From assembly GCF_007858975.2 (NCBI RefSeq), contig NZ_CP042220.2, positions 3,782,001-3,846,000 on the forward strand: a DNA stretch of 64,000 bases. The letters run 5' to 3'. Numbering within the stretch: the stretch's first letter is position 1; every line of letters begins with the position of its first letter. The position numbers and the translations under genes are program-made. The notes under the pieces are model-generated. The model was not told the DNA's origin. It saw nothing but the letters and a program-made list of their open reading frames with translations, and did no database searches. This DNA comes from Dickeya poaceiphila (GTDB taxonomy: Bacteria > Pseudomonadota > Gammaproteobacteria > Enterobacterales > Enterobacteriaceae). Shown here piece by piece: positions 1 through 19,719 of this stretch.

Positions 1-413
1 TCTACCGGCAGTCGCCACTCACGTTTCCAGGTAAAATCAATCCCGCATTCAGGTGCCAGCGAGACATGACGAAAGCGTTGATCTGCGGGAAGGAGGTCCG
101 CTTCAGCTAAAGGCTGATGGATGGTTTGCCGCGCGCCCTTGGCGAAAAGCGCATTGCGATCAAACTGCAACCCATAGGGGGCAAAATTGACCCCAGCCTT
201 AGCAGCGTTCAGCAGGAGCCGGGCGGCCTGAATCAGCGGGATTTCACTAAAGGCGATGCAGCGGCGCTCACCGAGAATATAAGGCGGACGTTCGCCGATC
301 AGCGCCCCGCGTTGCAGGATAGCCAGCAAGTCTGGCAACGGCGTATCGTGCTTTCCTAGCTTAATCCACCATATCAGTTTTTCACTCAGATCACTGCGCA
401 GCCAGTTAATCAT
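1..413 (-). CDS. Partial conserved protein, resembles AbiGi-type/unknown-function family
   Basis: The reading frame starts with ATG at 411-413 and stays open for 137 codons to the left edge, so the C-terminus is missing. It overlaps the stop of the MFS gene by 8 nt and is therefore probably the ninth gene of the operon. The protein begins MINWLRSDLSEKLIWW and contains the blocks CIAFSEIPL, NFAPYGLQFD, LFAKGARQ and FTWKREWRLP. From memory these recall a family of unknown function annotated as abortive-infection AbiGi-like or DUF2971-like. No signal peptide or membrane segment is visible. Family naming is uncertain; the frame itself is convincing because codon use matches its neighbours and the start is coupled. 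Confidence 0.6.
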   Translation of the reverse strand, partial: MINWLRSDLSEKLIWWIKLGKHDTPLPDLLAILQRGALIGERPPYILGERRCIAFSEIPLIQAARLLLNAAKAGVNFAPYGLQFDRNALFAKGARQTIHQPLAEADLLPADQRFRHVSLAPECGIDFTWKREWRLPV

Positions 414-1641
414 TTGCAGCATCCTCCAGCGCGGCGGGTTTCGTTTTTCCCATCCAGTGGGGCAGTTCTACCCACAGCAATACGACAGCAAACACGCCGC
501 ATAACGCCCAACCGGTGGCGACCAGCCCTATCTGATCAGAAAGCACGCCGCCAGCAACAATTGCCAGCACCATGCCGAGGGTGGAAAGCGATAAGACGCT
601 CGACGATACCGCAGCCATTGCCGAAGGCGGACACTGGACAATCATGTTCTTCTGGCAGAACGTGAACGCAATCTGGAAGACAAACAGATACAGTGCATAG
701 CCGGACAGGCTCAGCCAGACTACCGGGGTCAACAGCGACAACTGCATCAACACCACGCTGATCAATGCGATTAACCACGGCTGGTTGCGCCAGCTTTGAC
801 TTTCATCCTGCATCAACCACGCCACCACCAGCGAGCCAGTAAAGAAACTGACGCTGGCAATCGCCTGTAGCAACATAACCCCCTGTTCGCCCAGGCCGAG
901 AAGGTTGACAGGCAATAAGGTGCGCGCCACATTGTGAAATCCCTGCAATAACGCCGTTGTCACCATCACCCAGATAAATTGCCGCCGCAACTGCGGTAGA
1001 TCGCGCAGCGCCTCAAACGCCGGACGCAGCGCGCTGCCGCTGGCTACCGGCGCTGAACTCTCCTGCGTTCTGTTACGTCGCCACAGCAGGAAATAGAGCG
1101 CGCCGGAGATCAGAAAGGTTAAGCTGTCGATCAGCGCCACCCAGACCAGCGGACTCTTTTCTACCAGAATGGCACCCAGCAGCGACCCCAGCGCAATACC
1201 AATAAAGGTACCGGTACCGAACAGCGAGGCGGCGCGCCCCAACAGCGGCTCAGGAACGGTATTTTTCAGTGCGACCACCCTGGCGGCCTTGCTCAGGCTC
1301 TCGACCAGCCCGCGCAAGGCAAGCAGCACAAACACCAGCGTCAAATGCTCATAGCTCAGGCCAATCAGCAGTGACACCCCGCCGCCCAGCCATTCGCTAA
1401 TCGCGGCCAGTTTTGCGGCGCTAATCCGCTGCAACAACCGGCTGACCAGCGGAGCAGAGAAAATGATCGCCCCCCATTGCACGGCAAACACCGCCGATGC
1501 GAGAAAATTACTGCCAGTGATGCGCCAGATATACACCGACAGCGATAACATCAGTAAAAAATTCCCCAGCGTGCTGATTAATACTGCTGACCAGATGGTT
1601 TGCAGACTCTTGTTACGTACTGTTTCGCTTAAACTGGCCAT
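406..1641 (-). CDS. MFS exporter of the NRPS/PKS operon
   Basis: 411-residue integral membrane protein with about 12 hydrophobic segments, of the major facilitator superfamily (MFS_3/EntS-like exporter type). Its likely job is to export the product of the adjacent megasynthase genes from the cytoplasm. The start MASLSETVRNKSL is chosen because its ATG overlaps the TGA of the preceding nucleotidyltransferase gene (ATGA). The frame is open 44 codons further upstream, but that part lies inside the upstream gene. The C-terminal tail (KTKPAALEDAAND) is hydrophilic. Substrate is inferred from context only. Confidence 0.85.
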   Translation of the reverse strand: MASLSETVRNKSLQTIWSAVLISTLGNFLLMLSLSVYIWRITGSNFLASAVFAVQWGAIIFSAPLVSRLLQRISAAKLAAISEWLGGGVSLLIGLSYEHLTLVFVLLALRGLVESLSKAARVVALKNTVPEPLLGRAASLFGTGTFIGIALGSLLGAILVEKSPLVWVALIDSLTFLISGALYFLLWRRNRTQESSAPVASGSALRPAFEALRDLPQLRRQFIWVMVTTALLQGFHNVARTLLPVNLLGLGEQGVMLLQAIASVSFFTGSLVVAWLMQDESQSWRNQPWLIALISVVLMQLSLLTPVVWLSLSGYALYLFVFQIAFTFCQKNMIVQCPPSAMAAVSSSVLSLSTLGMVLAIVAGGVLSDQIGLVATGWALCGVFAVVLLWVELPHWMGKTKPAALEDAAND

Positions 1642-2486
1642 CAACCTTCCTCCACTGCGGGAGCCAGTTGGTAATCCGCAGGATCGACCTGATGCTGCGC
1701 CAGTAAAACCTGCAATTGCTGCTCTATCCAGGGGCAAAACGCCGCCAGTAACTGTTGTTGCTCTGCGAGGCAATCGTCCGGTTCAATTGCCCACGCCACC
1801 GCCTGGCGGCACAGGTCGGCCTGTTGTGGGTATTGACGGCAAAAGACCTGGCAACACAACGACAGATCACGCGTATAACAACGCTGCTGCTCCATTGTCA
1901 GTTCGAAAGCGGCGCGGACCACTGCTTTCATTATCCACTCACACATCAACCGCGGTTTAGCCTGCCATTCTGGCTGGCGCAAGCGCCTTTGGTATTCCGC
2001 CATCCGCTGCGATAACCACAACGCCTCTCCCATAATGGCTACCCCTGGCCGGTAAGGTGCCAGCTGGCGGGCATAATCATGGCCGTAAAGTAACAGCGAC
2101 TGTGTTTTGATGAAAAACGGCCACACGCCGAGGTAATTGCCCAAGACATCTTTTTCCTGGCAGGTGGTGAATTCCAGCTCGGTCAGCCCAGGCAATAACT
2201 GATGTAATTCCACCGTCAGAGCATCATCCGCCGTGAGCGGCGTTGTCGGGCATCCATCCGCCACAACGGCAAACGCATCAAGATCGGAGAGATAAGGCAC
2301 CTGGGTGCCGCGGGCGACAGAACCGCGCAAGTACACAGCGCGCAGCGTCTTTGGAAACCATTGCTGAAACGCGCTGACCAGCCGGGCACCAAACGCTGCG
2401 GGAAAATGGTGGGCGGAAGTGTCATTGACAATAAACCCCTGTTCATCAAGAGGGAAAAAACGACCCGGAATATCAGCGTGCGCCAT
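1641..2486 (-). CDS. Nucleotidyltransferase-domain protein (pol-beta type)
   Basis: 281-residue soluble protein. The N-terminal third has the nucleotidyltransferase signature GSVARG (residues 55-60) followed by SDLD (67-70), whose two aspartates are the expected metal ligands. The remainder is helical and resembles the C-terminal part of aminoglycoside-adenylyltransferase-like proteins. It starts 14 nt inside the upstream carboxymuconolactone-decarboxylase-like gene and its stop overlaps the MFS start, so it belongs to the biosynthetic operon. It may add a nucleotide to the product or an intermediate as tailoring or self-protection; this role is inference. Confidence 0.75.
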   Translation of the reverse strand: MAHADIPGRFFPLDEQGFIVNDTSAHHFPAAFGARLVSAFQQWFPKTLRAVYLRGSVARGTQVPYLSDLDAFAVVADGCPTTPLTADDALTVELHQLLPGLTELEFTTCQEKDVLGNYLGVWPFFIKTQSLLLYGHDYARQLAPYRPGVAIMGEALWLSQRMAEYQRRLRQPEWQAKPRLMCEWIMKAVVRAAFELTMEQQRCYTRDLSLCCQVFCRQYPQQADLCRQAVAWAIEPDDCLAEQQQLLAAFCPWIEQQLQVLLAQHQVDPADYQLAPAVEEG

Positions 2487-2898
2487 AATTTTCAGCCTCC
2501 ATAACCTGGTTATCCAGTTTGCTGAACGTTGCCATCACTGTTTGCGTTGCCGCAATCGCCGCCGGCCAGCCATTAAATAACGCGGTGAGTTCCACCGCGT
2601 TCAACACCTGCTCACGCTGCCAGCCCTGCTTTAGCGCGGCTCCGGCGCAAAACTCCAGCAAAGCTGGCGGAGTGCCTGCCGTGCAGGCCAGCACCAGAGA
2701 CAATAAGGTGCGCGTTTTCTCATCAATCGCCTGCTCTGCGCGAAAAAAATCGCCAAAATCTTCCAGAAAATGTTGTTTGAACGCGGGCGCTTGCAGGCGC
2801 ATCCCGTGTAACAGCCCGTGAGGATTGCCCAGTGGCAGCTCAAACTTTTCAACCGCCTGCAATCCACGCGACAAGCGATGGGGTTGTGCATCACTCAT
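2473..2898 (-). CDS. Carboxymuconolactone decarboxylase-like (AhpD fold) protein
   Basis: 141-residue helical protein. The central part (DEKTRTLLSLVLACTAGTPP, then a helix ending ALKQGW, then NAVELTALFNGWPAA) follows the pattern of the carboxymuconolactone decarboxylase/AhpD family. The canonical CxxC plus His active site is not seen: only Cys72 and Cys84 lie in the region and the usual His is replaced by Ala. The ATG overlaps the NRPS stop (ATGA) and its end overlaps the nucleotidyltransferase start. It is probably a tailoring or structural partner in the pathway; reaction unknown. Confidence 0.7.
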   Translation of the reverse strand: MSDAQPHRLSRGLQAVEKFELPLGNPHGLLHGMRLQAPAFKQHFLEDFGDFFRAEQAIDEKTRTLLSLVLACTAGTPPALLEFCAGAALKQGWQREQVLNAVELTALFNGWPAAIAATQTVMATFSKLDNQVMEAENYGAR

Positions 2899-5800
2899 GA
2901 AGGATTCCTTTGTGTCTGAGCCGGAACACGCCGCTCACGCGCCTGGGTAAATGCGGCGCGACGGCGGGCGGCATTAACATTAATCTCCGGCGATGGGGCG
3001 ACGGTCGGTGTTTTAGCCATGACAAACTGGCTGAGTGCCCGAATAGTGGGGTGGGCAAAAAGATCGACTACCGCCAGCGAGTCGCCCAGCGCGTTGCCGA
3101 TACGTTCGCTGGCCTGAACCATCATCAACGAGTTGGCGCCCATCTCGAAAAAATTGGTCTCGCAGTCCGGCGGTGTTGGTAGCTCAAGCAGTTGCTGCCA
3201 TACGCGGGCAATAGCCTGTTCGGTGGCATTACCTGTTTTCGCCTTTCTCTGTGGTTGTTGCGGCAACTGCTGCGGCAGACGGCGACAGTCAACTTTGCCG
3301 CTGGCGGTCAGCGGCAACTCGGACAACAGCGTGAAGCAGGAAGGCACCATATAAGCAGGTAGTTTTGCCATCAGCGCTTGTTTTACTGCCTCGATCTGTA
3401 CCGTTCCCGGCGTGTTTTCAACAATCCAGGCCGCCAGAACCGGATTGCGCTCATCACCAATCACATTAACCGCACAGTGACGAATCTCAGGCAATTGCCC
3501 AAGACAGGCATCAATTTCTCCTGGCTCAATACGATTGCCGCGCAGTTTGACCTGGAAATCCATCCGTCCGAGAAACGTCAGCACGCCATCATTTCGCCAG
3601 CGACCGAGATCACCGCTGCGGTAAAAACGCTGCCGGGTTCCATCAGGCAGGGTGCGCCAGACAAAGGCTTCCGGTGAACGCTGCCCCAGATACCCCTGCG
3701 AAAGCCCCGGTCCGGCAATACAGATTTCGCCCACCGCTCCCTGCGGTAACGGCTGGCCCTTTTCATCCATAATCAACAACTGGGTATTGGGATTGGCGAC
3801 GCCGAGCGGTACCGTCAGCGCACTTTCGTCTTGCGTCGTCGCCACGTGAGTCGCGCTGGTCATCGTGGCTTCGGTGGGACCGTACTGATTGATAATGGTC
3901 AGATTGCTGCCGAAAGCACGCCATGCCGCAGTGAGATCGTCGCCACGCAGACGCTCACCGTTCAGCATCAGCACCCGCAGGGTAGCGGCACCGCAGCTCT
4001 CCGCCAGCAAGGCACGCAGCAGTGTCGGCACCATCGACAATACATGACTGACCTGCTGTGCAGCCATCAGCGCCAGAATGCGCGCAGGATGAGTCGCCGT
4101 GGCGTCATCTGGCAGGATGGCGGCGGCACCACTCGCCAGCGTGGCGAACTGATCGCGTACGGCAGGGTCGAAGCTGAATGATGTCAATTGCAGCACCCGG
4201 TCGCCCTCCCCCAGCGCCAGACGGCGGATAAGAAAAAGCAAATCGTGTGCCACACCACCATGACGAATAGGCACCCCTTTGGGTATGCCAGTGGAACCTG
4301 AGGTATACATCAGATAACAGCACTGCTGCGCATCAACATGACGCGCCACTGCAACCACCGGCTGACCTTCCGCCAGCGTCAGTAAGCGCTGCTCATCAAT
4401 ATGCTGAGCAGGCTGCGCCTGCTGGCGCACCAGAGATTGCCGCTCGGCAGGCCAGTGTGGATCGATGGGTAAATACATTCCCCCCGCTTTCAGCACGCCG
4501 TAAAGCACGGCGATACGCGCGGCGCTGCGCGGCAGGCAGACGGAAACGCACTCCCCCGACGCCAGCCCTGAGGCAATCAGACCATGTGCCAGTTGGTTTG
4601 CCCAGCTATCAAGCTGGGCATAGCTCAGCTCACCGCCCTCCCACACCAGCGCCGTCGCCTGTGGCGTACGCTTCACCTGGGCTTCAAACAGGCCGTGCAA
4701 TGTCTGCGCCGTGGTTAGCGAAGGATCCTCGTGAGAAAATTCACTTTGCTGTGCGATAAACTCGGCGGCGGACATCAGGCTCAGGCTGTCGATCACCGCC
4801 CCCGGTGACGTCAGCATCGCGGCAATCAGCTGTTGCCACGCCTGCGCCAGTCGCACGAGGGTGTTCTCACCATACAGTGACTGGCGATAAGCGATATAAC
4901 CGCCAAACGCCGCGCCCTGAGACTGGAAATGCACGTTAAGATCATACTTTGCCTGCTGCGACAATGTCGGGCAGGTGGTCACCGCCAGCCCCGGCAAGCT
5001 GAGTTCATCGAGGCTGACAGGATCTTCCACGATTTGAATCTGAAAGAGCGGCGACTGTTGCGCATCACGCAGCGGATTCACCGCGTCAACCATCTCTTCG
5101 AATGGCAGCGCCGAGCCGGAGATCGCCTGATCAAATGCCGTAGCGACGCGCCTCACCAGCGTTTCCAGCGGCAATGAGCTATCACACTGCACACGCAGCG
5201 GAATGTTATTAAGCAACGGCCCGATCACTGCGGCACTGTCAGGATCATCGCGCAACGCTACCGGGATGCCGAAGACCAGATCCTGCTGGCGGCTGTAGCG
5301 TTGCAACAGGATAAACCAACTGCTCAACAGCACGACAAAAGGGGTAACGCTCCACTGCCGCGCTTGCTGTTTCAGTTGACGCCACTGTTCTGGCGCTAAT
5401 GACAGCGCCTGGATGCCGGCATCCTGCTCATCAGCACTATCAGGCTGGGAGTCGGTGGGAAAACGCGACGTTTGCGGCGCATCCGCCAGCCAGCTTCGCC
5501 AGCGTTCACGCAGCAAGGGATAGGCGGCCTTGCGCTGTTGCTCCAGCCAGGCGAACTGCGGGGCAGGTTCCGCAGGAAGCGAGCCAAGCCAGGCACGCTG
5601 TAGATCCTGTAGTAATATCGGCAATGACAAACCATCGGCGGCGATATGATGCAGGTTAACCAAAAGGTAGTGGCGTGCTGGCTCCGTATGTACCAGGGCA
5701 AAACGGATAAAGCGGTCGCGCGCCAAATCAAGTGGCTGAGTATGGAAGCCATGACGGAAAACGGGAAACTCCGCTTCACTGACCTGATACTCCTCCAGCG

Positions 5801-8800
5801 CTATCGGGCCATCCTGGGGATCAAGGTGATAATGGGGACCTTGTGGATTTTCAATCAAACGACTGCCGAGAATAGGGTGTCGCGCCACCAGCGCCACCAG
5901 CGCCTGTTGCAGCCGCAGTGTATCCAGTGCGCCGTCGAGACGCCATGCCGCAGACATCGAATATTCACTGCTTGCGCCATGAAGACGCCACAAAAACCAT
6001 AGCCGTTGTTGCATCGCGCTCAGCGGGTGCGCGGCATGAGGGTCGTGGTTGTCGATGTGGTCGGTACGCGCGTGCCCGGTCGGCAACTGCGCCAGCGCGG
6101 CGGCAAAATCCGCCAGACGCGGGTGTTGCATCATTAAGCCGGTGGATGCCGCGATACCCAACTGGCGGCGAATCTGGCGCACTACTTCCATCGCCAGCAA
6201 TGAGTGCCCCCCTAGCGCGAAAAAATCAGCATCACGATCATTGACCGGGCAATCCAGCAAGGTCTGCCAAATTTCCGCGATATCCTGCTCCAGACCAGCA
6301 TTCAATATGCCAGTCTGCGTGGCAGACGCGGGGGACGGCAAGGTCTGCGGCAACGCGTTACGATCAATTTTGCCGCTGCGGGTCAGCGGCATCGCGGCGA
6401 GCGGCACATAGCGTGCAGGCACCTGATAATGCGGCAGTCGCTGCGCCAGTGCGTCATGCAGTTGGCTCTCGGTCAGCCCGACCTCGGCGCTGCAGTAAAA
6501 TGCCGCCAGCAGCGCGTGTCCCCGCGCGTCTTCTCGTAGCGCGACGGCGGTTTCATCCACCAGTCCCGTGGCCAGCAATGCCGCTTCAATTTCTTCAATT
6601 TCAATGCGATAGCCATTGAGCTTAATTTGCCGGTCACTGCGCCCCAGGTAGTAAAGATTGCCATCTTCCCGCAACACAGCGCGATCACCGGTTAAATAAC
6701 GCCGCTGGTTGATACCTGCCCCGCCGGACAAAAACTGGCGTGCGGTCATATCGGGACGCTGGTGATATCCCAGTCCAACACTGTCACCATCAATCATCAG
6801 TTCACCGCTGACCCCGGCGGGTAACGGCTGGCCATGATGATCCACCACCGAAAGCAGCGCCCCCGGAATAGCCTGCCCCAACGGTACCGGTTCATGTTGC
6901 TGCGCAACAGGACTCGCCAGCAGATACCAGGCGACAACATCGGCGCACTCTGTCGGACCATAGCTGTTGATAAAACGACATGGCGTCGGCCTTTGCTGCT
7001 GCCACTGCCGCAGCGGTGCCAGCAGAATAGGTTCACCACCCAGCACGACATAACGCAAGCTGTCCAGTGCAACATATCCCTGCTCTTTGGCCTCCTGCAA
7101 CAGGGAGATAAATGCGGTTGGCGTACAGTTAATCACCGTGACCTGATGCTGAATGATCGCCGCCAGCACCGCCTTTGGATCAAACTGCTCCATGCAGGGA
7201 AACAGCACCTGCCCGCCACACATTAACGGCGCAAAGAGGTTTTTCTGGGTTAAATCAAATGCGATGTTACTGATCACCAACGCACGCATTTCTTCGTTGC
7301 CAACGGCCTGCTGGTACCATGCCAGCAGGCGTGCAACACCGGCATGATGCACAATCGCCGCTTTGGGCGTCCCGGTGGAGCCGGAAGTAAATATCAGCCA
7401 GGCGCGATCTGTCGGTTGAGTTACCCAGGGGGACCATTCGCCACTGATTTCGCCCTCCGGTAATGTCTCTTCATCAATCACCAACGCCAGACCCGCATCA
7501 GCAATCATTGCCTGTAAACGCGCCACGGGTTGCCGTCTGTCCAGCGGCACATAAGCACTTCCGGCGGCGAAAACGCCCAGCGTCGCCGCCAATGCGGCGG
7601 GACCGGCGGGTAAACCAATCCCCACCGACGATCCCGGTTGCACCCCCTGCTGATGCAGCCATTGTGCGACCCGACCAACCTTTGCCCATAGTTGCGCATA
7701 AGACCATGACTCACGCCCCTGAGCGACAGCAGTAGCCTGCGGCGTTTGCCTTACCTGACGCGCAATCTGCTCCAGCGGCCCTGCGGGGGATGCAGGTATC
7801 TGCGCGACTGCCGCAGTGGCCTGCAGGCGGAACGTCTGCAACGCCGCATCGGGATCGTCGGCGATTTGCTGCAGCAGGCAGAGATAGGCCTCAGCCATTA
7901 TTGCGACATCCTGCGCCGTCAGCGCGCCATGGCGAAACTCAAACAAACACTGCGGCTGTGCGCCAGGCACGACGGTCAGCATCAGATCAAATTTGGCCTG
8001 TTGGGGAAAATATCGCACCAGGCTGACATGAATGCCGGACAGCGCCAGTTGATCCGCCGCATCGCTTTCCAGGCTAAACATAATATTGCTGGCGGCCTGT
8101 GGATGGCGTGTACGCAGATGGTGATAAGAAGCATGGCTGTGGGGAAGACTTTCCTGCGTCTGCCGGGCCAATGTCAGCACCAGTTCGCGCAGTGTTTGCG
8201 TCGGCTGCATGTTCGCTCTGCTATACAAGGTGTTCACCAGAAAGCCGACACGTCGGGCGTCCGCAATGGCATTACGGTTGGCATAGGGGGTCAGCACCAC
8301 GGTATTGTTTTTTCCGTAATACCTGGCCAACAGCAGTTGGAATGCGGCATTCATCCAGTGGTGCAGACTGACGCCACTGCGTTCTGCCAATGCCGTCAGG
8401 CGGGACCACAGCTTACCGTCAACCGGCAAGACGGAATGACCGGCCTGTGGCTGGCCGACCGCCGGAGGAAACGAGATCGGTTCCTCAGCATCCTGCAACA
8501 GCGCTTCCCACCAGTCATCCGCTTGTCGGGTATCCGCCGCCGGGCGATAAACCGGCAGGTTTTCCGCTGGAGGTAAATGGCCCTGATAACGCTGGGCGAC
8601 GTTATTCAGCAACATCCCCAGACTCCAGCCATCAATTACACTGTGATGGAAAACCAGCAGTAACACATGGCGATCCTCTGCCTCGCGCAGCAATTGCGCA
8701 CGCAGCAGCACGTCGTTGGCCAGATCAAACGCGGGGGCGGCCAGTTGTTGCAGCCACTGTTGCGGCGTGCCGGACGGAGCCTGTTGCGCAACGATCGCCG

Positions 8801-9194: not shown

Positions 9195-12100
9195 AACGAA
9201 ATTTCCTCAATGTCGTCGCAGGATTGAGCCTGTTGCAACCAGCCAGCCAGCGCATCAGCCTGTTCGCCGAAAGCCCGATGATTAAGCAACAAGGCAATCG
9301 GAACCTCGACATTCAGATAGCGGCTGAGTTGTTGACGCAACTGCACTACGAGCAGGGAATTTCCGCCCAAGCTGATAAAGTGCGCCTCGCGATTCTGTGG
9401 ACGCTGCCCCAAAACCTGCTGCCATATATCCGCCAGTTGCTGTTCGTCCTCACGTTGCAGAGGTTGCGACTGTTTCTCGCCGAAGGCAGGCAACGGCAAT
9501 GCGCGGCGATCAATTTTTCCATTTGGGGTTTGCGGCAATGTCGGCAATGCCAGCCAGGCGCTGGGCAACATCCACTCAGGCAGTGTTTTCGCCAGTTGGC
9601 GGCGTAGCTCGCCGGAACCGGGCTCCTCTCCCGCCGGAACATACCAGGCGGCAAGCTGTTTCTGCCCGGTGGCGTTCTCCACCACACTAACCACAGCCTG
9701 CTGGATACCCGGCGCGCGCAACAGGCAACGCTCAACCTCACCGGTTTCAATGCGATAACCGTTCAGTTTTATCTGGTGATCCAGACGGCCCAGGTAGACT
9801 AATCGCCCATCCGCCAGACGACGCACCCGATCCCCTGTGCGATAGGCGCGGGTTTCCAGATGGCGGAGCGCGGCAGGTACGGTAAAGGCCGCCGCGTTAA
9901 GTTCGGGGCGTTGCAAATAGCCTTGCGACAATTTCTCCCCGGCCAGCCACAACTCTCCCGGCATGTTTTGCGCCACTGGCTGCTGGACGCTATCCAGCAC
10001 GTATGCCCTGGTGCCAGGCAATGGCGTGCCAATGGTTTCATCACCACCGGCATAGCGGCGAGCGCAGGTGGAATAGACGGTATCTTCGGTCGGACCATAC
10101 AGATCCAGTAATCGCAGCAGTGGTGCCTGACTCAGCAGCCGGTCAACCAGCGTCTGGCGGAAAGGCTCGCCAGCCACCAGCGCCACCTGAGCCTGCAACG
10201 GGAAGGCTCCGGCCTGCAACAGCGCCTCCACGGCGGAGGGCACGGTATTGACCAGAGAAACATCAAGCGAACGCTCCGCCAGATCGAGAATACGTTCGAC
10301 GATCACGCAGCACGTTCCGAGACACAGCGGAACAAAGCATTCAAACACGGACAAATCGAAGCAGATGGATGTCGATGCCAGAATCCGCGCACGTTCCCTG
10401 TCGCTCAGACAGGTCTGCGCCCAGTCCAGCAACGCCGAAATATTGCCCTGCGTCACCTGCACGCCTTTCGGTCTGCCGGTGGAGCCTGAGGTGTAAAGCA
10501 CGTAGGCAATAGCATCAAGACTGGCCGCCACCAGCGGACGCGAAACCTCCGGCCGCAGATCGACTGGCGTAATAACATGATGTTCGGGGAATAACGCCGG
10601 ATCGCGCGCCATAACAATCCGGCACTGGCTGTCCTCCATCATCATGGCCAGCCTGTCTGGCGGATAGCTGAGATCCATCGGCACGTAACAGGCACCAGCA
10701 GCATGAATCGCCAGCATCGCTGCTGGCAGATGACGGTCGCGCGTCATCGCCAGGCCAATGCGTTCCCCCGGCCTGACATGCTGATGCTGCAACAACGCGG
10801 TATAACCTTGCGCCAGCGCCAGCAGTTGAGCGTAGCTGCAGGCTCCACTGGCGTCCTCGACTGCGGTAGCATCAGGGGATAACGCCGCCTGGCGACGGAA
10901 ACGGCTAATCACATCCTGGTGGCTCAGTTGGGGTGTGACCGGGCGGGTCAACAGGCCCATTTCAGCCTGTTCAGCCAATGACAGGTAACAAATCTGGCCG
11001 ATGGCGATATCTGGCCGCAGCAGCGCTTCATGCAGCCATTGCTGTAAATGTGCCAGTAAGCGTTGCGCGCTGTGGCTGTCGCACTGCAGCGGATCAAACT
11101 CCAGCTCCAGCACTATCTGTTGTGGCGACGGGAATGCCAGCAGTGAAAACTGGCTTTGCGCCGCCGCTGCGGGAATAAACGGCGGACAATCAGGCTGTTC
11201 ACTCTGACAGGCGAACACGGCATGGTAGAGATTATCGCGCTGAGGCTGCCGCCGCCGCACCTGTTCCAGCAACGAAATATAGGGCAGAAAGCGATGACGA
11301 AGCAGCAGATGAGTGTGCGAGCTGACTTGCTCAAGCAGCGTTTTCAGCGTGGTGTCATCATCAACGTGCAACGCCAGTGGCAAAATATTAACTGCATTAC
11401 CCAGCCAGCGGGCTTGCTGAGGCGCGCGCACGGAAACCGGTATGCCAAGCGCCAGTCGCGTTTCACCGCTATATCGCGCCAGCAGAGCAGCAAAGGCGGC
11501 GGCTAACAGCACATGCAGCGTAGTCCCGGCCTGCTGTGCATATTGCTTTAATGCCTGCGTTTCAGCGGCGGCCAGCGTGTGACGCACACTGGCCAGCGCC
11601 GCCGGTTGTACCGGTTTCGCCAGATTAAAATCTGGTCGTTCCGGCATGGCGCACAGCGCATCCAGCCAGCCAGCATCGGCCTGCAGATCGGGACGAGCGC
11701 TGCTGTGCAGGCTTCCGAGCATCAACGGCAAACGGCTGGCTGCCGGTAAACACTGTTCCCCAGCGAGCAGTTGGCGCAAATCGTGCAACAATGTCTGCGC
11801 GGCCATATGATCAATAATCATATGGTGAACCGCTAATGCCAGTTGCACGCCTTGTCCCTGCCCGGTTAGCAGGGCGCAACGCCACGCTGGGCTGACAGTC
11901 AAATCAAAGGGACGCGCACGGAAATCCAGCAACCATGCTGACCGCTGTGCGGACGTCCAGTCGCTAGCGTCCACGCATTCCAGCTTCACTCCCGCCCCGC
12001 TAAGCCAGCCGGAATCCGTCAGCGTCGCCGCCAGTTGCGGGTGCGCCGCGCTGAGCAGATCTAACGTCTGCTGCACCTGCTCTGGCGAGTGGTGCGGTGA

Positions 12101-14164
12101 CAGCGTCAGGAAGGTCGCCAGGTTGTAGCATGACGCGTCGGGCTGCGTCTGTTGATGTAGCCAGATCGCTTGTTGCCAGGGCGTCACCGCTGCATTTTCC
12201 ACTGGAGGTTCCTCCTCCGGCACAGTCTCCATCGCAGGTAAGGCCGCAAGCTGCTGCTCCAGTTTTTCCAGCGTCAAATCGGCCAGCAACCAGTCGAGCG
12301 GAATAGTGCGGGCTAACCGCTGCTGCAACAAGGTGTGCAATTCAAGCCGGAGCAGTGAATCAACACCCAGCATACTTAAGGTATGCCGGGGCTGAGGGCT
12401 TAACCCTTTAGCCGCAAGCAGAGTGAAAAGCGCGGAAGAAGATCTGGCGTCAGAGGCTTCACTACGGCATGGCAAGCCAAGCGGAGCAAGATTTCCCGCC
12501 TGCCACTGGCTGCACATATAGCGACGACGCAGTTTGCCGCTGGAGGTTTTGGCCACGCTTCCCGGTTTCACCGCCACCAGATGCGCCAGCGTCAAACCAT
12601 GGCGTCCGGCAACGGCGCTACGCGCCTGCTCCAGCGCTTGTACGGCATCAAACCGGCGCACCGCGCTGCGTCGCACTTCCTGTACCACGACCAGTTCGTC
12701 ACCACTCATAAACGCCACGCCGCCCCCCGTGACAAACTGGCTGTCACTGCTCTGCACGGTGTATTCAATATCCTGCGGATAGTGGTTACGGCCACGAACA
12801 ATCAACACGTCTTTCAGACGCCCGGTGACATACAGCTGACCATCACGCAAAAAGCCCAGATCGCCAGTACGCAGATAGCTCGTCTCAGCATCATCTGCCA
12901 GTGCGGCCAGCAAGGTGGCATTCGCCTCTGACGCATTCCAGTATCCGCGGCTGATGCTGTCACCGCGCAGCCAAATCTCCCCCACCCTGCCATCGGCACA
13001 ACGCGTCCGCCGTTCCGGATCGGCGATAATCAGCTGAGTTCCGCCCCACAGCTGGCCGCTGCTTACCAGCGTGGTGCCATCAGTGGTTGTCGTCAGTTGC
13101 GCTACCCCGGCGCTGAGCCGTTCGCTGTCAACATGCAGGGTCGTCGCCGGTTGCCCCGCTACATTGCCCGATACAAACAGCGTCGCTTCCGCCAGCCCAT
13201 AGCAGGGATACAGCGCGCCGTGTCGCAAGCCGTAGTGCGCATAGGCAGCCTGAAAGCGCGCCACGGTTTCACTGCGAATCGGCTCCGCGCCATTATAGGC
13301 AACGTCCCAGCGGGAAAGATCGAGGCCTGCGCGCTCCTCCTCGCTGATGTTATTGACACAAAGGGCGTAGGCAAAATCGGGTCCGCCGCTACAGGTCACT
13401 CCCGCGTCAGAAATCAGGCGCAACCAGCGGACAGGCTTTTGCAAAAACGCCATCGGCGGCATCAGCCAACAGCTGACGCCCAGATAGAGCGGCTGCATCA
13501 CGTTGCCGATGAGTCCCATATCATGAAACAACGGTAACCAGCTGGCGAATACCGTATGGTCGCCATTGCCCATCCCCTGTCGGATAGCACACTGATTACT
13601 CATCAGATTGGCATGGGTGACAATCACACCTTTTGGGTCACCGGTAGAGCCGGAAGAGTATTGTAAGAAAGCAATGTCTTCTCCGGTCAACGCTGGCGCC
13701 CACCATGCGTCAACATCGCCACGCTGCGCGTCTTCGATACAGCGTAGTGCAAACGCGTCAGCTTCACTCTCACGCCGCACATCATCCAGCGTTTCATGGT
13801 TGGTGAGGATGGTGGTCGCCTGGCTACTGGCGATAAGTTTTTGCAGGCGATCACTCTTCGAGCGATTGTTGCCCGGTGGATAGGCGGAAACCGCTATCAC
13901 ACCGGCATATAAACAGCCGAAAAACGCCACGATAAAATCGATTCCGGGGCGAAATTGCAGCAGTACCGGCTGCTTACTCAGGCCCTGTTGCTGCAGCATC
14001 AGTGCGGTCAGGCGCGCCTGTCTGTCCAGTTCAGCATAACTGAGTGACGTGGCGACCTTTTCACCATCAGGCAAATAGTAAAAAGCGACCGTATCCGGGC
14101 GCTTCTGCGCCCAATACTGAATAACATGATGAAAGCAGGGGAAATTTTCGACCGGGGACGACAT
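9191..14164 (-). CDS. FAAL-ACP-C-A-T hybrid synthetase
   Basis: 1657-residue loading protein. It starts with a fatty acyl-AMP ligase domain (YSSGSTGDPKG at 169-179, SWLPLFHDMGLIG, YGLAEATL), followed by an acyl carrier with GVDSLL (Ser603), a condensation domain with HHMIIDH at 780-786, an adenylation domain with YTSGSTGRPKG at 1224-1234, and a carrier with LGGNSLL (Ser1603). The FAAL should activate a free fatty or polyketide acid as acyl-AMP and load it onto the adjacent ACP. The adenylation specificity reads D-L-F-N-L-A-L-V-Y, close to an alanine-type code as I remember it. The C-terminus ends in an acidic tail (CDDIEEISL) suited to the TubC docking domain of the next protein. The start MSSPVENF is chosen because AGGAGG lies 7 nt upstream; an ATG two codons earlier overlaps the upstream stop and is an alternative. 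Confidence 0.93.
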   Translation of the reverse strand: MSSPVENFPCFHHVIQYWAQKRPDTVAFYYLPDGEKVATSLSYAELDRQARLTALMLQQQGLSKQPVLLQFRPGIDFIVAFFGCLYAGVIAVSAYPPGNNRSKSDRLQKLIASSQATTILTNHETLDDVRRESEADAFALRCIEDAQRGDVDAWWAPALTGEDIAFLQYSSGSTGDPKGVIVTHANLMSNQCAIRQGMGNGDHTVFASWLPLFHDMGLIGNVMQPLYLGVSCWLMPPMAFLQKPVRWLRLISDAGVTCSGGPDFAYALCVNNISEEERAGLDLSRWDVAYNGAEPIRSETVARFQAAYAHYGLRHGALYPCYGLAEATLFVSGNVAGQPATTLHVDSERLSAGVAQLTTTTDGTTLVSSGQLWGGTQLIIADPERRTRCADGRVGEIWLRGDSISRGYWNASEANATLLAALADDAETSYLRTGDLGFLRDGQLYVTGRLKDVLIVRGRNHYPQDIEYTVQSSDSQFVTGGGVAFMSGDELVVVQEVRRSAVRRFDAVQALEQARSAVAGRHGLTLAHLVAVKPGSVAKTSSGKLRRRYMCSQWQAGNLAPLGLPCRSEASDARSSSALFTLLAAKGLSPQPRHTLSMLGVDSLLRLELHTLLQQRLARTIPLDWLLADLTLEKLEQQLAALPAMETVPEEEPPVENAAVTPWQQAIWLHQQTQPDASCYNLATFLTLSPHHSPEQVQQTLDLLSAAHPQLAATLTDSGWLSGAGVKLECVDASDWTSAQRSAWLLDFRARPFDLTVSPAWRCALLTGQGQGVQLALAVHHMIIDHMAAQTLLHDLRQLLAGEQCLPAASRLPLMLGSLHSSARPDLQADAGWLDALCAMPERPDFNLAKPVQPAALASVRHTLAAAETQALKQYAQQAGTTLHVLLAAAFAALLARYSGETRLALGIPVSVRAPQQARWLGNAVNILPLALHVDDDTTLKTLLEQVSSHTHLLLRHRFLPYISLLEQVRRRQPQRDNLYHAVFACQSEQPDCPPFIPAAAAQSQFSLLAFPSPQQIVLELEFDPLQCDSHSAQRLLAHLQQWLHEALLRPDIAIGQICYLSLAEQAEMGLLTRPVTPQLSHQDVISRFRRQAALSPDATAVEDASGACSYAQLLALAQGYTALLQHQHVRPGERIGLAMTRDRHLPAAMLAIHAAGACYVPMDLSYPPDRLAMMMEDSQCRIVMARDPALFPEHHVITPVDLRPEVSRPLVAASLDAIAYVLYTSGSTGRPKGVQVTQGNISALLDWAQTCLSDRERARILASTSICFDLSVFECFVPLCLGTCCVIVERILDLAERSLDVSLVNTVPSAVEALLQAGAFPLQAQVALVAGEPFRQTLVDRLLSQAPLLRLLDLYGPTEDTVYSTCARRYAGGDETIGTPLPGTRAYVLDSVQQPVAQNMPGELWLAGEKLSQGYLQRPELNAAAFTVPAALRHLETRAYRTGDRVRRLADGRLVYLGRLDHQIKLNGYRIETGEVERCLLRAPGIQQAVVSVVENATGQKQLAAWYVPAGEEPGSGELRRQLAKTLPEWMLPSAWLALPTLPQTPNGKIDRRALPLPAFGEKQSQPLQREDEQQLADIWQQVLGQRPQNREAHFISLGGNSLLVVQLRQQLSRYLNVEVPIALLLNHRAFGEQADALAGWLQQAQSCDDIEEISL

Positions 14165-14166
14165 AC

Positions 14167-15456
14167 TCATGCCTCCTCTGCACCAAAATGACGACGGAAT
14201 GCAGCGATGGCGGATGCAGGAACACGCCAGAAACCACAATGCAAATTGGCCGCCTGGTAGCCACGTTCGACCAATGCCTGGTAGTGCGTGACCGCGTGCT
14301 GCGGCTCCACCATGCCCAGCGTCGCGGGATAATCAAATTTGCCGGAAAACAGGCTGGAGAGAATACAACCGGTAATATGATGCGCGTTATCGTCATCCGC
14401 CGGGTATTGCAGTGCCCATTCCAGCGCTTTTGGCACGTAGATACGATGTTGAATCTCACCAGGCGCGCGCAATGCGCCACCTTCGGTAAACAGGATATCG
14501 CTCTGAGTTTCAAGGCGCTCAATCGCCTGTGCGACATCAAAGCAGTGAGGGTCCGAGTCATCGACAATCAGCGAGCCTGGACGCAGGCGTGCCACATCCA
14601 CCACGTTCGGCACATTCGTCGCACCAACTAATGTCGTCGCCTGATAGATCTCTTCCGGACAAGTGCGCTGCGAAGGTGCAAAGCGCAGTTCGCCCTGATA
14701 ATGCAGCTCTTCGCGCAAATAACGCATTAATGTTTCCAGCGCATCACGCCGCGTGTAGAGATCGCACAATGTCAGGCTGCGAGGATGCGGCAGAACCGTC
14801 AACATCAGAGACAACGCAGCGGTACCCACCGATCCCAGGCCAATAAAGCTCAGATCTTCATCAGCCAAATCACGCCCTGCCGACTGTAACAGTTTCTGCA
14901 AAGACAGCACCACCGCCGAGGTGGTGGTGGCATGTCCGGTGGTAATCAACGGCTGGTTCGCCTGATGGCGAATTGCCTGACCATAGCGCGTCGCCGATGG
15001 AATCAGCCCGGTCAGTGAAACAGCACGGGCGCCTAGTGAATGCGCAATATGAAGACTCTGTTCAACCAGCCGGACGATATCGCCGCTTTGCGAATAGATT
15101 TGCCCGTAAGTACGCGGCAGCGTCAGCGTGGCAATACGCCCTTCAGGCAACTGGCGAATATTGCTGAGCAACGGCAAGTCGCCACAAATACCGTGGGTGA
15201 TATCGCGCAAATTGAAACCTTTCCCTACCACACGATCATTCAGGCAGGTAATGGACACCGCATCCACCGGCGCCTCTTCACCTGCGGCAAAAAGCGTCAG
15301 CAATGGCCGCTGATCAAGAATCAGCCATGGCGCAAGCCTCGTTTCCAGTGCCTCTTGCGCGTCATTGCTGGTTTTGGCGCGCTGTGACAACTGGGCCAGC
15401 AGTTTATTTTTTAACTCAGGAGTCAGGGTCGGCAGGGACGAAGAGACACTGGACAT
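14167..15456 (-). CDS. NAD(P)-binding reductase, long-chain acyl-ACP reductase-like
   Basis: 429-residue soluble protein with a Rossmann fold: GLGSVG at 206-211 and an acidic residue at the end of the next strand (LTLCDLY, Asp232). The surrounding pattern (SLTGLIPSATRYG, then TTGHATTTSAVV before the glycine loop) recalls cyanobacterial-type aldehyde-forming acyl-ACP reductases. That would fit reduction of a carrier-bound thioester to an aldehyde or alcohol. The N-terminus (LPTLTPELKNKLLAQLSQRA) looks like a short helical docking segment and resembles the N-terminus of the neighbouring monooxygenase. It starts 1 nt after the monooxygenase stop. Family assignment is from pattern memory; the dehydrogenase fold is firm, the substrate inferred. 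Confidence 0.65.
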   Translation of the reverse strand: MSSVSSSLPTLTPELKNKLLAQLSQRAKTSNDAQEALETRLAPWLILDQRPLLTLFAAGEEAPVDAVSITCLNDRVVGKGFNLRDITHGICGDLPLLSNIRQLPEGRIATLTLPRTYGQIYSQSGDIVRLVEQSLHIAHSLGARAVSLTGLIPSATRYGQAIRHQANQPLITTGHATTTSAVVLSLQKLLQSAGRDLADEDLSFIGLGSVGTAALSLMLTVLPHPRSLTLCDLYTRRDALETLMRYLREELHYQGELRFAPSQRTCPEEIYQATTLVGATNVPNVVDVARLRPGSLIVDDSDPHCFDVAQAIERLETQSDILFTEGGALRAPGEIQHRIYVPKALEWALQYPADDDNAHHITGCILSSLFSGKFDYPATLGMVEPQHAVTHYQALVERGYQAANLHCGFWRVPASAIAAFRRHFGAEEA

Positions 15457-15457
15457 A

Positions 15458-16612
15458 TCAGTTTACCTTTTGCTCACGAAAGTGGGTGGGCGCTAATTCG
15501 CGCAACAGCGCCAGACTGGTCAACGTGGCGTCGAGGGGGATACCAAAATCAATCAGACAGGCGATTTCATTCACCCCCATGGCGCTCAGGGTATGGGTCA
15601 AACGGCGGCATTTTTCGACCGGGCCAAACAACGCGGCCTGTTCAAAATAGCGTTCGAAAGCAAAGTCGAGAAACTGCGCTTTGTTGGCATTCACATTCTG
15701 GCGAATATCCGCCTCCACCAGGTTGTCGTATTGCCGGATATAGCCTTCGAGATAGCGCAGCATGGGTGCGCGAACCAGCTCCTTTGCCCGCTGAATATCA
15801 TTATCCAGATAGGTATGCAGCATGATGCTAATCACCCCGCTCTGCGGATCGAATCCCGCCCGCTCACGCGTCTGACGATAGTTATGAATATTCTCTTCCA
15901 GCAGACTGAGAGAATGTCCCAACATGCACAGCACATTGCACCCTTGCTCTCCGGCACGGCGCCACCCTTCAGGTGAACTACAGGTCAGCCAGTAGCGCAA
16001 CGTTGGCTGAATCGGTCGCGGCCATGTGCGCACCTCGACGCTCTCCCCGTCCACGCCCGGAATGGCGACCGCCTCGCCGCGCCACAGGCGTTGCATCTGT
16101 TGCATACCGCTGGCGACACGTTCACGCCGGTCATGCCAGGCTTCGGGCAGTAAAGCAAAGTCCCCTTTATGCCATCCGCTGGCCAGCGCCAGCGCCACGC
16201 GACCGCCGGAGAGGTTATCGACTACCGACCACTCCTCGACAATCCGCACCGGATTATGCAGCGGCACCACGACGCTGCCGGCGCGGAGTTCCAGGTTTTC
16301 AGTGCGTACCGCCAGCGCTGCGGCCAGAACCGAAGGATTCGGGTACAAGCCGCCAAAAGGGGTGAAATGGCGTTCAGGCAACCAGATAGCGTTGATACCG
16401 TGCTTATCGCCAAATTCAGCACAGCGAAACAGCATGTCGTATTTATTAACCGCCCCCTCTTCATCGTTAGCCGAGAAAAAAAACAGGCTAAAATCAAGCT
16501 CGCCTGCTGCCTCTGGCAGTGGCTGCTGCGCTCGTTTAGCACTGCGCTGGCGCAGTTGCTCTCGCTGTTGCGGGGTTAATCCCGCCAGTTTTTCTTTGAG
16601 AAAGTCATTCAT
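15458..16612 (-). CDS. Luciferase-like FMN-dependent monooxygenase (MupA type)
   Basis: 384-residue bacterial luciferase-like monooxygenase of the type often found inside or beside NRPS/PKS genes. Supporting blocks are DFSLFFFSAN, GINAIWLPERHF, GSVVVPLHNPVRIVEEW and ALASGWHKGDFAL. Such enzymes use reduced flavin and oxygen to hydroxylate or cleave carrier-bound intermediates. A 30-residue helical leader (LAGLTPQQREQLRQRSAKRA) precedes the barrel and may dock it to a synthase. The ATG overlaps the PKS stop by 4 nt (ATGA). Oxygenation of the growing chain is inferred from family and context. Confidence 0.88.
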   Translation of the reverse strand: MNDFLKEKLAGLTPQQREQLRQRSAKRAQQPLPEAAGELDFSLFFFSANDEEGAVNKYDMLFRCAEFGDKHGINAIWLPERHFTPFGGLYPNPSVLAAALAVRTENLELRAGSVVVPLHNPVRIVEEWSVVDNLSGGRVALALASGWHKGDFALLPEAWHDRRERVASGMQQMQRLWRGEAVAIPGVDGESVEVRTWPRPIQPTLRYWLTCSSPEGWRRAGEQGCNVLCMLGHSLSLLEENIHNYRQTRERAGFDPQSGVISIMLHTYLDNDIQRAKELVRAPMLRYLEGYIRQYDNLVEADIRQNVNANKAQFLDFAFERYFEQAALFGPVEKCRRLTHTLSAMGVNEIACLIDFGIPLDATLTSLALLRELAPTHFREQKVN

Positions 16613-19600
16613 GACGCCTGTCCCTGCTCTTCCTGCAACAGCGCGTACAGCTCCTCTTCGGAGAACTCACCCAACGCTTCCAGCAACACACTCAGCTCTG
16701 CGCTATCTACGCTATTCAGCAGACGCTGTTCGACCAGAGCCGTGAGATCGCTGATGGTGGCGGCGTGAAGTAACTCAGACAGATGAATTTCACAGCCAAA
16801 GTGAGCGTTAACTTTGCTGACAATCTGCAAAGCCCAGAGTGAGTTACCTCCCAGGTCAAAAAAGTTTTCATCCGGGCTGATAGCCGGTAAAGCCAGCACG
16901 TCCTGCCAGATAGCGGTGATCTGTTGCTGAACGTCATTCTGTGGTTCCGTACTGCTTGCATCAGATTGTTTCATCGTGAGGTTCTCCGCTGAGGAAAATT
17001 TACGGGATTCAACCTGCGGGGCAATCAGCTGGCTGAAAAGGGATTGGATCTCTTGCTGACTGCAATACTCTTTGCCGTCGAGGCTCAGAGTGACGCCGCC
17101 GGTCGCCAGAAGCTGGCTCAGATGCGCGGTGTCAGCCACAGGATGAGGTTCTGCCCAGTGATAGCTGCGCTCAAAGGCGTAGCCTGGCAGACGAAAACGT
17201 TGCAGATCTAACGGCGCAGTCATCAATCCGCTCAGATCGATAGCCTGGCCATGCGCCCACAACTCGCCAGCGGCCTGCAACAGCGCGGAGACTGACTGCT
17301 CTGCCCGCGAGGCATGAGGCTGGCTGCTGATAACCGTCGCAGCAGGTAAAACGCCGCGCGCCAGCGATGCCAATACCGTACCGGGGCCACACTCCAGAAA
17401 AATATCCACACCCTGAGCGGCGGCACATTCCAACCCGGCAGCGAATTGCACTGGACGACGAAGATGTTCCGCCCAATATTGTGCTGAAAGCGCCTGCTCT
17501 TCGCTCAGCAACTGGCCGGTCACATTGGACACAATCGGGATTGAAGGGAAATGACGTGGCGTGGCAGCCACTGCCTGGGCTAACTCGGTCGCTGCCGGTA
17601 GCATTGCCGCAGTATGAAAGGCGTGGGAGGTATGCAGGAGGCGGTAGGCGATGCCCTGTGTTTCCAGTTGCCGGCTAAGCTGTTCAAGCAGCACCGCATC
17701 GCCGCCCACCACACAAGCGTTATGCTGGTTGATAACGGCAATCTCCAGCTCCGGCGGCAGTTGCTTTTGCAACGCTGGCGCGTCTAATGCCACGGACAAC
17801 ATGCGTCCGGGCCTTGCCGCCTGCATCAAACGGCCACGCAGACAAACCAGGCGCATGGCGTCATCCAGTGAAAATATTCCCGCCAGACAGGCGGCCACCC
17901 ATTCGCCAATGCTGTGGCCCAATAACACCGTTGGCTCAATCCCCTGCTGACGCCACCACTGCGCCAGCGCCCAACTGGTAGCGAACAGCGTCGGCTGGGC
18001 ATATTCCGTCAACATCAACGTTTCGCTTTCTGACATCAGCAGTGGCAGCAGTTCGCCGCCGCCGTGGCGGCGCATACTCTGCCCCGCCTCATCAAGCCAG
18101 TTGCGGAAGTCGGCGCATTGCCGGTACAGCGGCAGCGTCATTTGCGTATGTTGCGAACCCTGCCCAGGGAACAAAAATGCCACATCACCAGCGCCAGCGA
18201 CCGCTGCGGTTACCGGCCGCACCGTCTGCAACGATTTCACCGCCTGCGCGATATTTTCAGCGACAATCGCAGCGCGACAAGCAAAATGACTACGGGTCGA
18301 TGCCAGCGTGGTGGCGAAACCGGGCAACTCCGCATCGCTGCGCGATGCCAGCGCCGCAGCAAGCTGGTGGCACTGGTTCTCCAGCGCGGCGGGACTTTTC
18401 GCCGACAGCACCAGCAGTGATGCGTGGCTCGCCGGTAATGGCGATGCAGTGACCTCAGGGGGTTGTTGCAGGATCAGATGTACATTTGTGCCACCGATAC
18501 CGAAACTACTGACTGCGGCTTGCCGTGGTTTTTTGCCGGGTTGCCAGGGTTCCGCCTGCTGTGGGATACGGAACGGCGACTGGGTTAATTTCAGCGCGGG
18601 GTGAGGCGTTTCGCAATGCGCCAGTGGTGGAATCACCCCCTCCCGCACTGCGCAACACGCCTTAATCAACCCTGTCACGCCAGCTGCCGCCCCCAGATGG
18701 CCGATATTTGCCTTGATGGAACCCAATGCGCAAAAACCGCTGCGGTCAGTGTAGGGATTCCACGCCTGCGTAAGGGCGGAAATCTCAATGGAGTCGCCCA
18801 GTTGCGTACCAGTGCCATGAGTTTCCACATAGCCGATATCTTCCACATCCGCTTCTGCCACCGCCAGCGCTTCCGTAATCACACGCGCCTGTCCGCTGAC
18901 GCTGGGGGCAGAGTATCCCACTTTGTCATTGCCATCGCTGTTGACCGCACTGCCGAGGATCACGCCATGGATAGCATTACCATCACGTAATGCATCATCC
19001 AGCCGTTTCAGCGCCACCAGTGCAACGCCAGCACCATCAATCGTGCCATTAGCATCCATTGAGAAGGGGCGGCACAGGCCATCCGGTGATAAAAAACCGC
19101 CGGGGATCGCCAACTGGGATTCGGGTTGAAACGCCGGGATCGCCGCCCCTCCGGCAAGCGCGACATCGCACTCCCAGGTGAGCAGGCTGTTACAGGCTAA
19201 ATGAACGGCAAGCAGCGACGTTGAACAGGCGGTATTGACGCTAATGGCCGGCCCACCCAGTCCTAAACGGTAAGCAATCAGCGTTGCTGCACTGTCTTTG
19301 CGGTTCATCATTTGCAAGTAATCAGCCCCCAGCGCGGCTAAATGGCGGGGGTTGTGCTGCAAATGTTCTTCAAAATAACGGGAGTGGCGCACGCCAGCGA
19401 AGATACCGGTGCGTAAACGCTGGTGTTCCTGACAGGCATTCGCCTGCTCCAGCGCCAGCCAGGCTTGCTCCATCAGCAAGCGAAGCTGAGGATCCAGCGC
19501 TTCAGCTTCAATCGGGGTATAACCAAAAAAAGCAGCGTCGAACCATTCCGGATGAGTTAATAGTGGTCGGCGATGTATCCAGTTCTGCCCAGGTCTTTCC

Positions 19601-19719
19601 TGAATAGTCGGAGGAAATTCAGGTATGGAGACTTTTCCGCTACGGATATTCTGCCATAAAGCATCTACATCTTCTGCATCGGGAAAAACTCCCTGCATTG
19701 CAACAATCGCAATATTCAT
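16609..19719 (-). CDS. Type I polyketide synthase module (KS-AT-ACP)
   Basis: 1036-residue single-module PKS. The ketosynthase has the complete triad: Cys165 in NTACSTS, His301 in ETHGTGT and His341 in NIGHLG. The acyltransferase has GHSIGEW (Ser603) and the HAFH motif at 699-702, which predicts malonyl-CoA. The carrier has LGGNSL (Ser960). No ketoreductase, dehydratase or enoylreductase is present, so the module should leave a beta-keto group. The tail after the ACP (SEEELYALLQEE) resembles a docking motif. The start MNIAIVAMQG is preferred because GGTGG lies just upstream; a start 12 codons earlier is possible. First gene of the operon, preceded by an AT-rich leader. Confidence 0.93.
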   Translation of the reverse strand: MNIAIVAMQGVFPDAEDVDALWQNIRSGKVSIPEFPPTIQERPGQNWIHRRPLLTHPEWFDAAFFGYTPIEAEALDPQLRLLMEQAWLALEQANACQEHQRLRTGIFAGVRHSRYFEEHLQHNPRHLAALGADYLQMMNRKDSAATLIAYRLGLGGPAISVNTACSTSLLAVHLACNSLLTWECDVALAGGAAIPAFQPESQLAIPGGFLSPDGLCRPFSMDANGTIDGAGVALVALKRLDDALRDGNAIHGVILGSAVNSDGNDKVGYSAPSVSGQARVITEALAVAEADVEDIGYVETHGTGTQLGDSIEISALTQAWNPYTDRSGFCALGSIKANIGHLGAAAGVTGLIKACCAVREGVIPPLAHCETPHPALKLTQSPFRIPQQAEPWQPGKKPRQAAVSSFGIGGTNVHLILQQPPEVTASPLPASHASLLVLSAKSPAALENQCHQLAAALASRSDAELPGFATTLASTRSHFACRAAIVAENIAQAVKSLQTVRPVTAAVAGAGDVAFLFPGQGSQHTQMTLPLYRQCADFRNWLDEAGQSMRRHGGGELLPLLMSESETLMLTEYAQPTLFATSWALAQWWRQQGIEPTVLLGHSIGEWVAACLAGIFSLDDAMRLVCLRGRLMQAARPGRMLSVALDAPALQKQLPPELEIAVINQHNACVVGGDAVLLEQLSRQLETQGIAYRLLHTSHAFHTAAMLPAATELAQAVAATPRHFPSIPIVSNVTGQLLSEEQALSAQYWAEHLRRPVQFAAGLECAAAQGVDIFLECGPGTVLASLARGVLPAATVISSQPHASRAEQSVSALLQAAGELWAHGQAIDLSGLMTAPLDLQRFRLPGYAFERSYHWAEPHPVADTAHLSQLLATGGVTLSLDGKEYCSQQEIQSLFSQLIAPQVESRKFSSAENLTMKQSDASSTEPQNDVQQQITAIWQDVLALPAISPDENFFDLGGNSLWALQIVSKVNAHFGCEIHLSELLHAATISDLTALVEQRLLNSVDSAELSVLLEALGEFSEEELYALLQEEQGQAS

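Follow-up and report, generated by a model that had tools for sequence, protein, structure and literature searches.

What does the hybrid NRPS-PKS gene set at one end of this Dickeya poaceiphila DNA assemble, how would the chain be released, and has the cluster been described before? The window, i.e. the whole stretch of 64,000 nucleotides that was analysed, covers bases 3782001-3846000 of a single-contig genome of 4,317,154 bases. The cluster comprises eleven genes on the minus strand; those from the PKS to the MFS exporter occupy 406-19719, and the last three cross or leave the left window edge. The features are as follows (L002 coordinates lie outside the window).

19720..20787, no strand: AT-rich upstream region, which probably holds the promoter of the operon (sequence)
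16609..19719, minus strand: PKS, KS-AT(malonyl-type HAFH)-ACP, with no KR, DH or ER match (Pfam, NCBIfam, motifs, six-way alignment)
15458..16612, minus strand: FMN luciferase-like monooxygenase of the MupA/Atu3671 family, proposed alpha-hydroxylase (TIGR04020; nearest PDB entry PuwE, 6ket)
14167..15456, minus strand: RED, a stand-alone TAD/AAR-type NAD-binding release enzyme, proposed active Cys364 (profile and fold comparison)
9191..14170, minus strand, alternative start 14164: FAAL-ACP-C-A-T, code DLFNLALVY (domains, motifs, A-domain code)
2895..9194, minus strand: TubC-C-A-T-C-A-T, codes DLKNVGSDV and DPRSMNQMT (domains, motifs, A-domain codes)
2473..2898, minus strand: carboxymuconolactone-decarboxylase-like protein, CMD (PF02627, 32.6 bits, cut-off 23)
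1641..2486, minus strand: nucleotidyltransferase-like protein with a GS...SDLD stretch (PF01909, 18.8 bits, just below the cut-off of 21)
406..1641, minus strand: predicted MFS exporter (PF07690)
1..413, minus strand, final 127 bases beyond the window, ending at L002:17874: small conserved protein, 179 aa (predicted ADP-ribosyltransferase-like fold)
L002:16264-17877, outside the window, following the small gene: AMP-ligase, 537 aa
L002:15575-16267, outside the window, following the AMP-ligase gene: type-II thioesterase, 230 aa

A sequence-only reading of the window had counted nine genes, because the window edge cuts the cluster; the AMP-ligase and type-II thioesterase genes follow outside. 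Its list and coordinates (PKS, monooxygenase, reductase-like protein, FAAL-ACP-C-A-T, C-A-T-C-A-T, CMD, nucleotidyltransferase, MFS and small protein, all on the minus strand) hold, and so does its description of the junctions as tight. The seven junctions measured in the window lie between an overlap of 14 bases and a gap of 2 bases, the start of the small gene (413) overlaps the MFS stop (406) by 8 bases, and, from their coordinates, the AMP-ligase and thioesterase genes each overlap their neighbour by 4 bases. Within 1-20000, promoter-like sites are not enriched (7, against a mean of 9.3 in shuffles) and terminator-like sites are not commoner than in shuffles (25, against a mean of 21.6). 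From gene spacing alone, we infer a single transcript for the cluster.

Solanimycin, which had been considered as a possible identity, can be discarded. The sol cluster and the cluster in the window are both of the hybrid NRPS-PKS kind and share a genome, where a SolG match above the cut-off (2604 bits) is indeed present at G000:C1:1186863, a different locus. However, sol is described as a trans-AT cluster of 40.3 kb with 12 ORFs (PMC9765074) and has other enzymes, whereas the PKS in the window carries its AT in cis, and the two NRPSs score 337.8 and at most 339.6 bits with the SolG model, far below its cut-off of 2200. Table 11 of PMC10319131 names no cluster that could be equated with this one; three clusters are listed there merely as unknown, in other species. 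A literature search found no characterised cluster with this gene set. From the sequence comparison with sol and these published records, it is scarcely conceivable that the cluster is solanimycin or another known Dickeya cluster; its enzyme families are known, and their arrangement was not found described. Elsewhere in the genome, one open frame (10,219 aa) spans G000:C1:1400647-1429281 and has numerous matches of NRPS type.

The cluster, with its observed gene set, intact motifs, family memberships, conserved order and signs of horizontal transfer, is best read as an orphan assembly line of eleven genes for a lipid-tagged peptide with a ketide end and TAD-type release, a reading that we hold with about as much belief as doubt. 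We infer every chemical step, the order with the PKS last, the product and its function. The FAAL would activate a fatty acid and load it onto the adjoining ACP, and the first C domain would couple it to what is probably alanine. Two residues would follow on the second NRPS protein, the first predicted to be homoserine and the other, X, without a prediction. The KS-AT-ACP protein would extend the chain by one malonate and so introduce a beta-keto group, the MupA-type monooxygenase would hydroxylate the alpha carbon on the ACP, and RED would take the chain onto Cys364 and release it as a C-terminal primary amide (or aldehyde). The MFS protein would export the product, which is probably antimicrobial.

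The domain motifs are intact. The Cys/His/His triad of the KS, the GHSxG and HAFH motifs of the AT and the ACP serine are all present according to motifs and alignment, also in the five other PKS copies aligned; the HAFH acyltransferase had been recognized correctly before. An inactive KS (KS0) was considered and rejected, since the alignment shows the KS motifs to be intact. The ACP of the FAAL protein and the three T domains retain the carrier serine. The HHxxxDG motif is found in two of the three C domains, and the first reads HHMIIDH. The FAAL scores 451.8 bits with the curated model PRK05850 (cut-off 775) and matches, over nearly its whole length, a 572-aa PDB chain, 7r7g, with the molecule name 'Polyketide synthase'.

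The three A-domain codes (DLFNLALVY, DLKNVGSDV and DPRSMNQMT, in this order) are each identical in the window, Pantoea, Erwinia ErVv1, E. piriflorinigrans and Hahella, wherever the retrieved sequence includes the domain. The first is probably Ala-like, by comparison with a code list. For the third, a literature search gave no specificity, and we know of no code that matches it; this gap, and the tentative nature of the alanine assignment, count against the assembly-line model. The second is predicted from its sequence to select homoserine or its lactone, as DLKNVGSDVK is assigned to either (PMC12283262), and the related DLKNFGSDVK to Hse (PMC7524897).

The monooxygenase passes TIGR04020 with 418.3 bits (cut-off 244.45), and its nearest PDB entry by sequence is PuwE (6ket, E 6.4e-95). 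For MupA, alpha-hydroxylation of an ACP-bound chain has been reported (PMC10953402). With MupA of mupirocin and PuwE of puwainaphycin the cluster shares a TIGR04020-type monooxygenase adjoining a PKS; it differs in that the PKS is a single cis-AT module whose KS triad is intact (no KS0) and in that the partner is a release enzyme. KrmP of an uncultured bacterium (P0202) is 46% identical to the monooxygenase. Judging from its name, we guess that KrmP belongs to keramamide; an unusual C1 extension is mentioned for the keramamides (PMC12858407).

The kinship of the monooxygenase to PuwE, its nearest solved relative, raises a different order of events. In puwainaphycin biosynthesis, the fatty acid is extended and alpha-hydroxylated ahead of peptide synthesis. 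By analogy, PKS, monooxygenase and RED might act first, and the position of their genes at the head of the operon, before the FAAL gene, would also fit such an order and counts against the assembly-line model. However, one protein unites the FAAL with its ACP and the first C domain, no aminotransferase match was found in the ten proteins scanned of the eleven or in the small one, the NRPS precedes the trio in Robbsia, and RED belongs to a release family. We therefore consider fatty-acid-first action distinctly unlikely, and retain the order with the PKS last.

RED was earlier called acyl-ACP-reductase-like and counted as one of two flavin/nicotinamide tailoring enzymes. The superfamily and the outline of two such enzymes stand, but among solved structures the carmabin TAD, not an AAR, is the closest, and RED is a member of a chain-release family, not simply a tailoring reductase. 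Its top profile match is the carmabin TAD 9e4s (E 1.9e-166), with similarity across the whole domain, and no solved AAR is among the 20 profile matches listed. RED and the carmabin TAD (PDB 9e4s, 9e4u, 9e4x, 9e50 and 9e56, released in 2025) have the family, the fold, the NAD-binding loop and the active-site Cys in common; Cys364 of RED maps to Cys2238 of the carmabin TAD (numbering offset 1886, derived here), the residue that in TADs reacts with the pantetheine arm, and is kept in 117 of the 120 homologues listed. Comparison was made with the carmabin TAD only, and the likeness to the terminal domains of VatR (vatiamide) and HcaD (hectoramide) is presumed from it. In HcaD and VatR, the domain forms part of an NRPS and follows a carrier, whereas RED is a separate 429-aa protein, encoded after the PKS and the MupA-type monooxygenase, and thus not a C-terminal domain behind an NRPS carrier.

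RED could also be an ordinary acyl-thioester reductase that releases an aldehyde and no amide. The product would then be a hydroxy-keto-aldehyde, which is reactive and could cyclise. AAR, a structural relative, yields aldehydes, and TAD chemistry is a prediction for RED; both points weigh against the assembly-line model. C-terminal amide formation is only proposed even for the named TAD members, and the enzymology of such terminal amidation was unstudied as of 2024, according to PMC10949194. The profile matches listed, with the TAD on top and AAR missing, speak against aldehyde release, as does the origin of the carmabin TAD from a pathway with an amide product. We regard aldehyde release as a real possibility, somewhat less probable than the TAD-type release of the assembly-line model.

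How common is a separate RED with a monooxygenase partner? A profile search of genome contigs with RED gave 78 loci, to which the Pantoea locus and the window's own were added, for a total of 80. Loci were counted as fused when RED lies in frame behind at least 300 residues, and flanks were examined for up to 10 kb, or less where the contig ended sooner (the locus of the window itself is short). RED is fused in 59 loci, stand-alone-like in 12 and cut by the contig end in 9. The monooxygenase gene was found at 4 of the 78 profile-search loci. In the flanks of up to 10 kb, it accompanies RED in 6 of the 12 stand-alone-like loci and in none of the 59 fused or 9 cut ones; at all six, these two genes and the PKS gene lie side by side in one conserved order. 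The other six stand-alone-like loci, without the monooxygenase within the flanks, weigh against the assembly-line model; they include two short, probably broken frames (L032 and L074). For 9 of the 22 best RED matches from protein searches, the longest contig has the same size as that of a listed monooxygenase match, an indirect sign of linkage in, among others, Hahella, Vibrio vulnificus, Chitinivorax and Caldimonas. Unexpectedly for the genus, TAD-family proteins are also encoded in two Rickettsia records, from a Rickettsia endosymbiont of Culicoides (L065) and a Rickettsia MAG (L064); in the former, NRPS C and A domains adjoin the gene. Four cyanobacterial loci and one Saprospiraceae MAG (L022, L024, L025, L034 and L075) have a gene resembling NAD synthase close to that of the TAD family, as in Pantoea; it may serve target duplication, amidation or the supply of NAD.

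The same genes, in the same order, are found again in Pantoea stewartii, two Erwinia and, without a CMD match, Hahella; therefore, the cluster is not a chance assembly. The orphan cluster on Pantoea plasmid NZ_CP046586.1 is collinear with this one over all eleven genes, with ten proteins 69-86% identical (BLASTP) and the small protein 78% identical (tblastn). It has, in addition, genes for an NAD synthase, which exceeds the NAD+ synthase cut-off, a LysE translocator and a penicillin acylase, and a PPTase gene nearby. After the thioesterase gene, NAD synthase and acylase genes follow in ErVv1, NAD synthase, LysE and acylase genes in E. piriflorinigrans, and an acylase gene in Hahella, with a weak, partial NAD-synthase-like match farther on. 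In Robbsia, no acylase match was found, which also counts against the assembly-line model. The Pantoea acylase has a hydrophobic N-terminal stretch, presumably a membrane anchor, and keeps an SNGW motif, which we take to hold the catalytic Ser.

PvdQ/ClbP-type prodrug maturation is a comparable scheme. The FAAL-loaded lipid and the acylase gene in the clusters of the relatives are shared with it, and the acylase at the end of the Pantoea, Erwinia and Hahella clusters may remove the fatty acid, which would make the lipid a removable tag. The earlier description of the product as an acylated, oxidised tripeptide-polyketide agrees with the domain order and the HAFH AT, with the caveat that the acyl group may be removed in the relatives. 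Unlike in the PvdQ/ClbP-type systems, no acylase gene is in place at the cluster in the window: no remnants of the NAD synthase, LysE or acylase genes were found beside the thioesterase gene, and the best match anywhere in the stretch has E 0.35. Deacylation would either be missing in place or be carried out by an unlinked acylase. The genome encodes an acylase about 2 Mb away, 53-55% identical to that of Pantoea; it is not a moved cluster gene, as a 65-83% identical gene is present in 6 of 8 same-genus genomes, none of the eight having RED.

The absence of the three genes means that the copy in the window could be impaired, which weakens the assembly-line model. It could even be what is left of a transferred pathway, decaying and silent; the variable interval around it holds integrases and an IS3 transposase. 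We consider this unlikely, as all eleven frames are open with intact motifs, and the eight proteins compared are 82-92% identical to those of ErVv1. For all eight, this identity exceeds that between ErVv1 and E. piriflorinigrans (59-83%). In contrast, GyrB is 85.6% identical between the window genome and ErVv1, and 93.3% between the two Erwinia; the D. poaceiphila GyrB is 85.4-85.6% identical to those of the two Erwinia and 93-97% identical to those of seven of eight same-genus genomes (seven compared), so that an Erwinia as the host of the cluster in the window was rejected. The G+C content is 57.5% in the cluster and 45% in the next 10 kb. These are signs, seen in the sequences, that the cluster was acquired horizontally.

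The cluster belongs to an interval bounded by tRNA-Phe (3756208-3756283) and, at window 39.7 kb, a merR/P-type ATPase gene pair; this interval measures 65.4 kb here and about 4-5 kb in the same-genus genomes G002 and G006 (in G004, the right flank was not reached). First in the interval, at tRNA-Phe, comes a separate 16-kb element (L123:12208 to L002:8560) that encodes two integrases and a restriction-modification pair of type III; it stops at 3772543 with a 16-base copy of the tRNA end. In six of eight relatives, the tRNA is followed directly by sequence resembling that past the 16-base copy; G004 is an exception, and in G003 such sequence comes only farther on. Just beyond the left window end, five tightly packed plus-strand genes (L002:9940-15319, about 45% G+C; arginase-like, two JmjC/cupin-like, one of unknown type and one MFS-like) are convergent with the cluster and look like a second small biosynthetic operon. 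Upstream of the cluster, window 21628-24582 encodes an IS3-family transposase (one 510-aa frame) and then a D12 adenine methyltransferase, and window 25539-39229, in the same variable interval, a surface-polysaccharide set (hexapeptide transferase, Wzz/tyrosine-kinase-like, Bac_transf).

Genome searches (order-wide, 1/394; class-wide, 1/369; and 58 relatives) found the cluster in its own genome only. Protein searches add possible copies in four further species: the monooxygenase alone was matched in Serratia nevei, the small protein alone in Erwinia aphidicola, RED together with the small protein in Enterobacter cloacae, and these two plus the monooxygenase in Vibrio vulnificus. As copies known by name were missed in the genome searches, sampling is thin. 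In a plasmid collection, the Pantoea record was the sole match; this orthologous cluster resides on the 311-kb plasmid pCN101 (L003) of a sugar-cane isolate. D. poaceiphila likewise comes from sugar cane (PMC10319131).

The small protein had been labelled AbiGi-like, a label that Pfam does not support: nine members gave no Pfam match to AbiGi at E up to 1 (one has a DUF3146 match, E 0.096), and the weak best matches of its predicted fold are NAD-using ADP-ribosyltransferases. The nucleotidyltransferase-like protein, which has no match in the PDB, is a candidate for self-protection. More speculatively, and with a small chance of being right, the PKS, the MupA-type monooxygenase and the stand-alone TAD may form a portable warhead cassette that turns a carrier-bound peptide into an alpha-oxidised keto-amide or, because the 46% identical KrmP hints at keramamide-type C1 extension, a one-carbon-trimmed alpha-keto-amide. 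The lipid would be stripped after export, and NAD-linked neighbours (the ADP-ribosyltransferase-like small protein, the nucleotidyltransferase and, in the relatives, the NAD synthase) would cap the homoserine hydroxyl for self-protection. If so, the product end would be of a classical covalent protease-inhibitor type.

Eleven horizontally acquired genes should thus make a fatty-acid-tagged small peptide with an oxidised end. The TAD-family enzyme is here a separate 429-aa protein in a simple operon of an Enterobacterales member, with a monooxygenase as partner; therefore, the release chemistry and its coupling to alpha-oxidation can be assayed directly, and the three-enzyme finishing set may offer a simple route to study peptide release. 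Since the cluster moves between genera, once on a plasmid, its product may matter in competition on plants.
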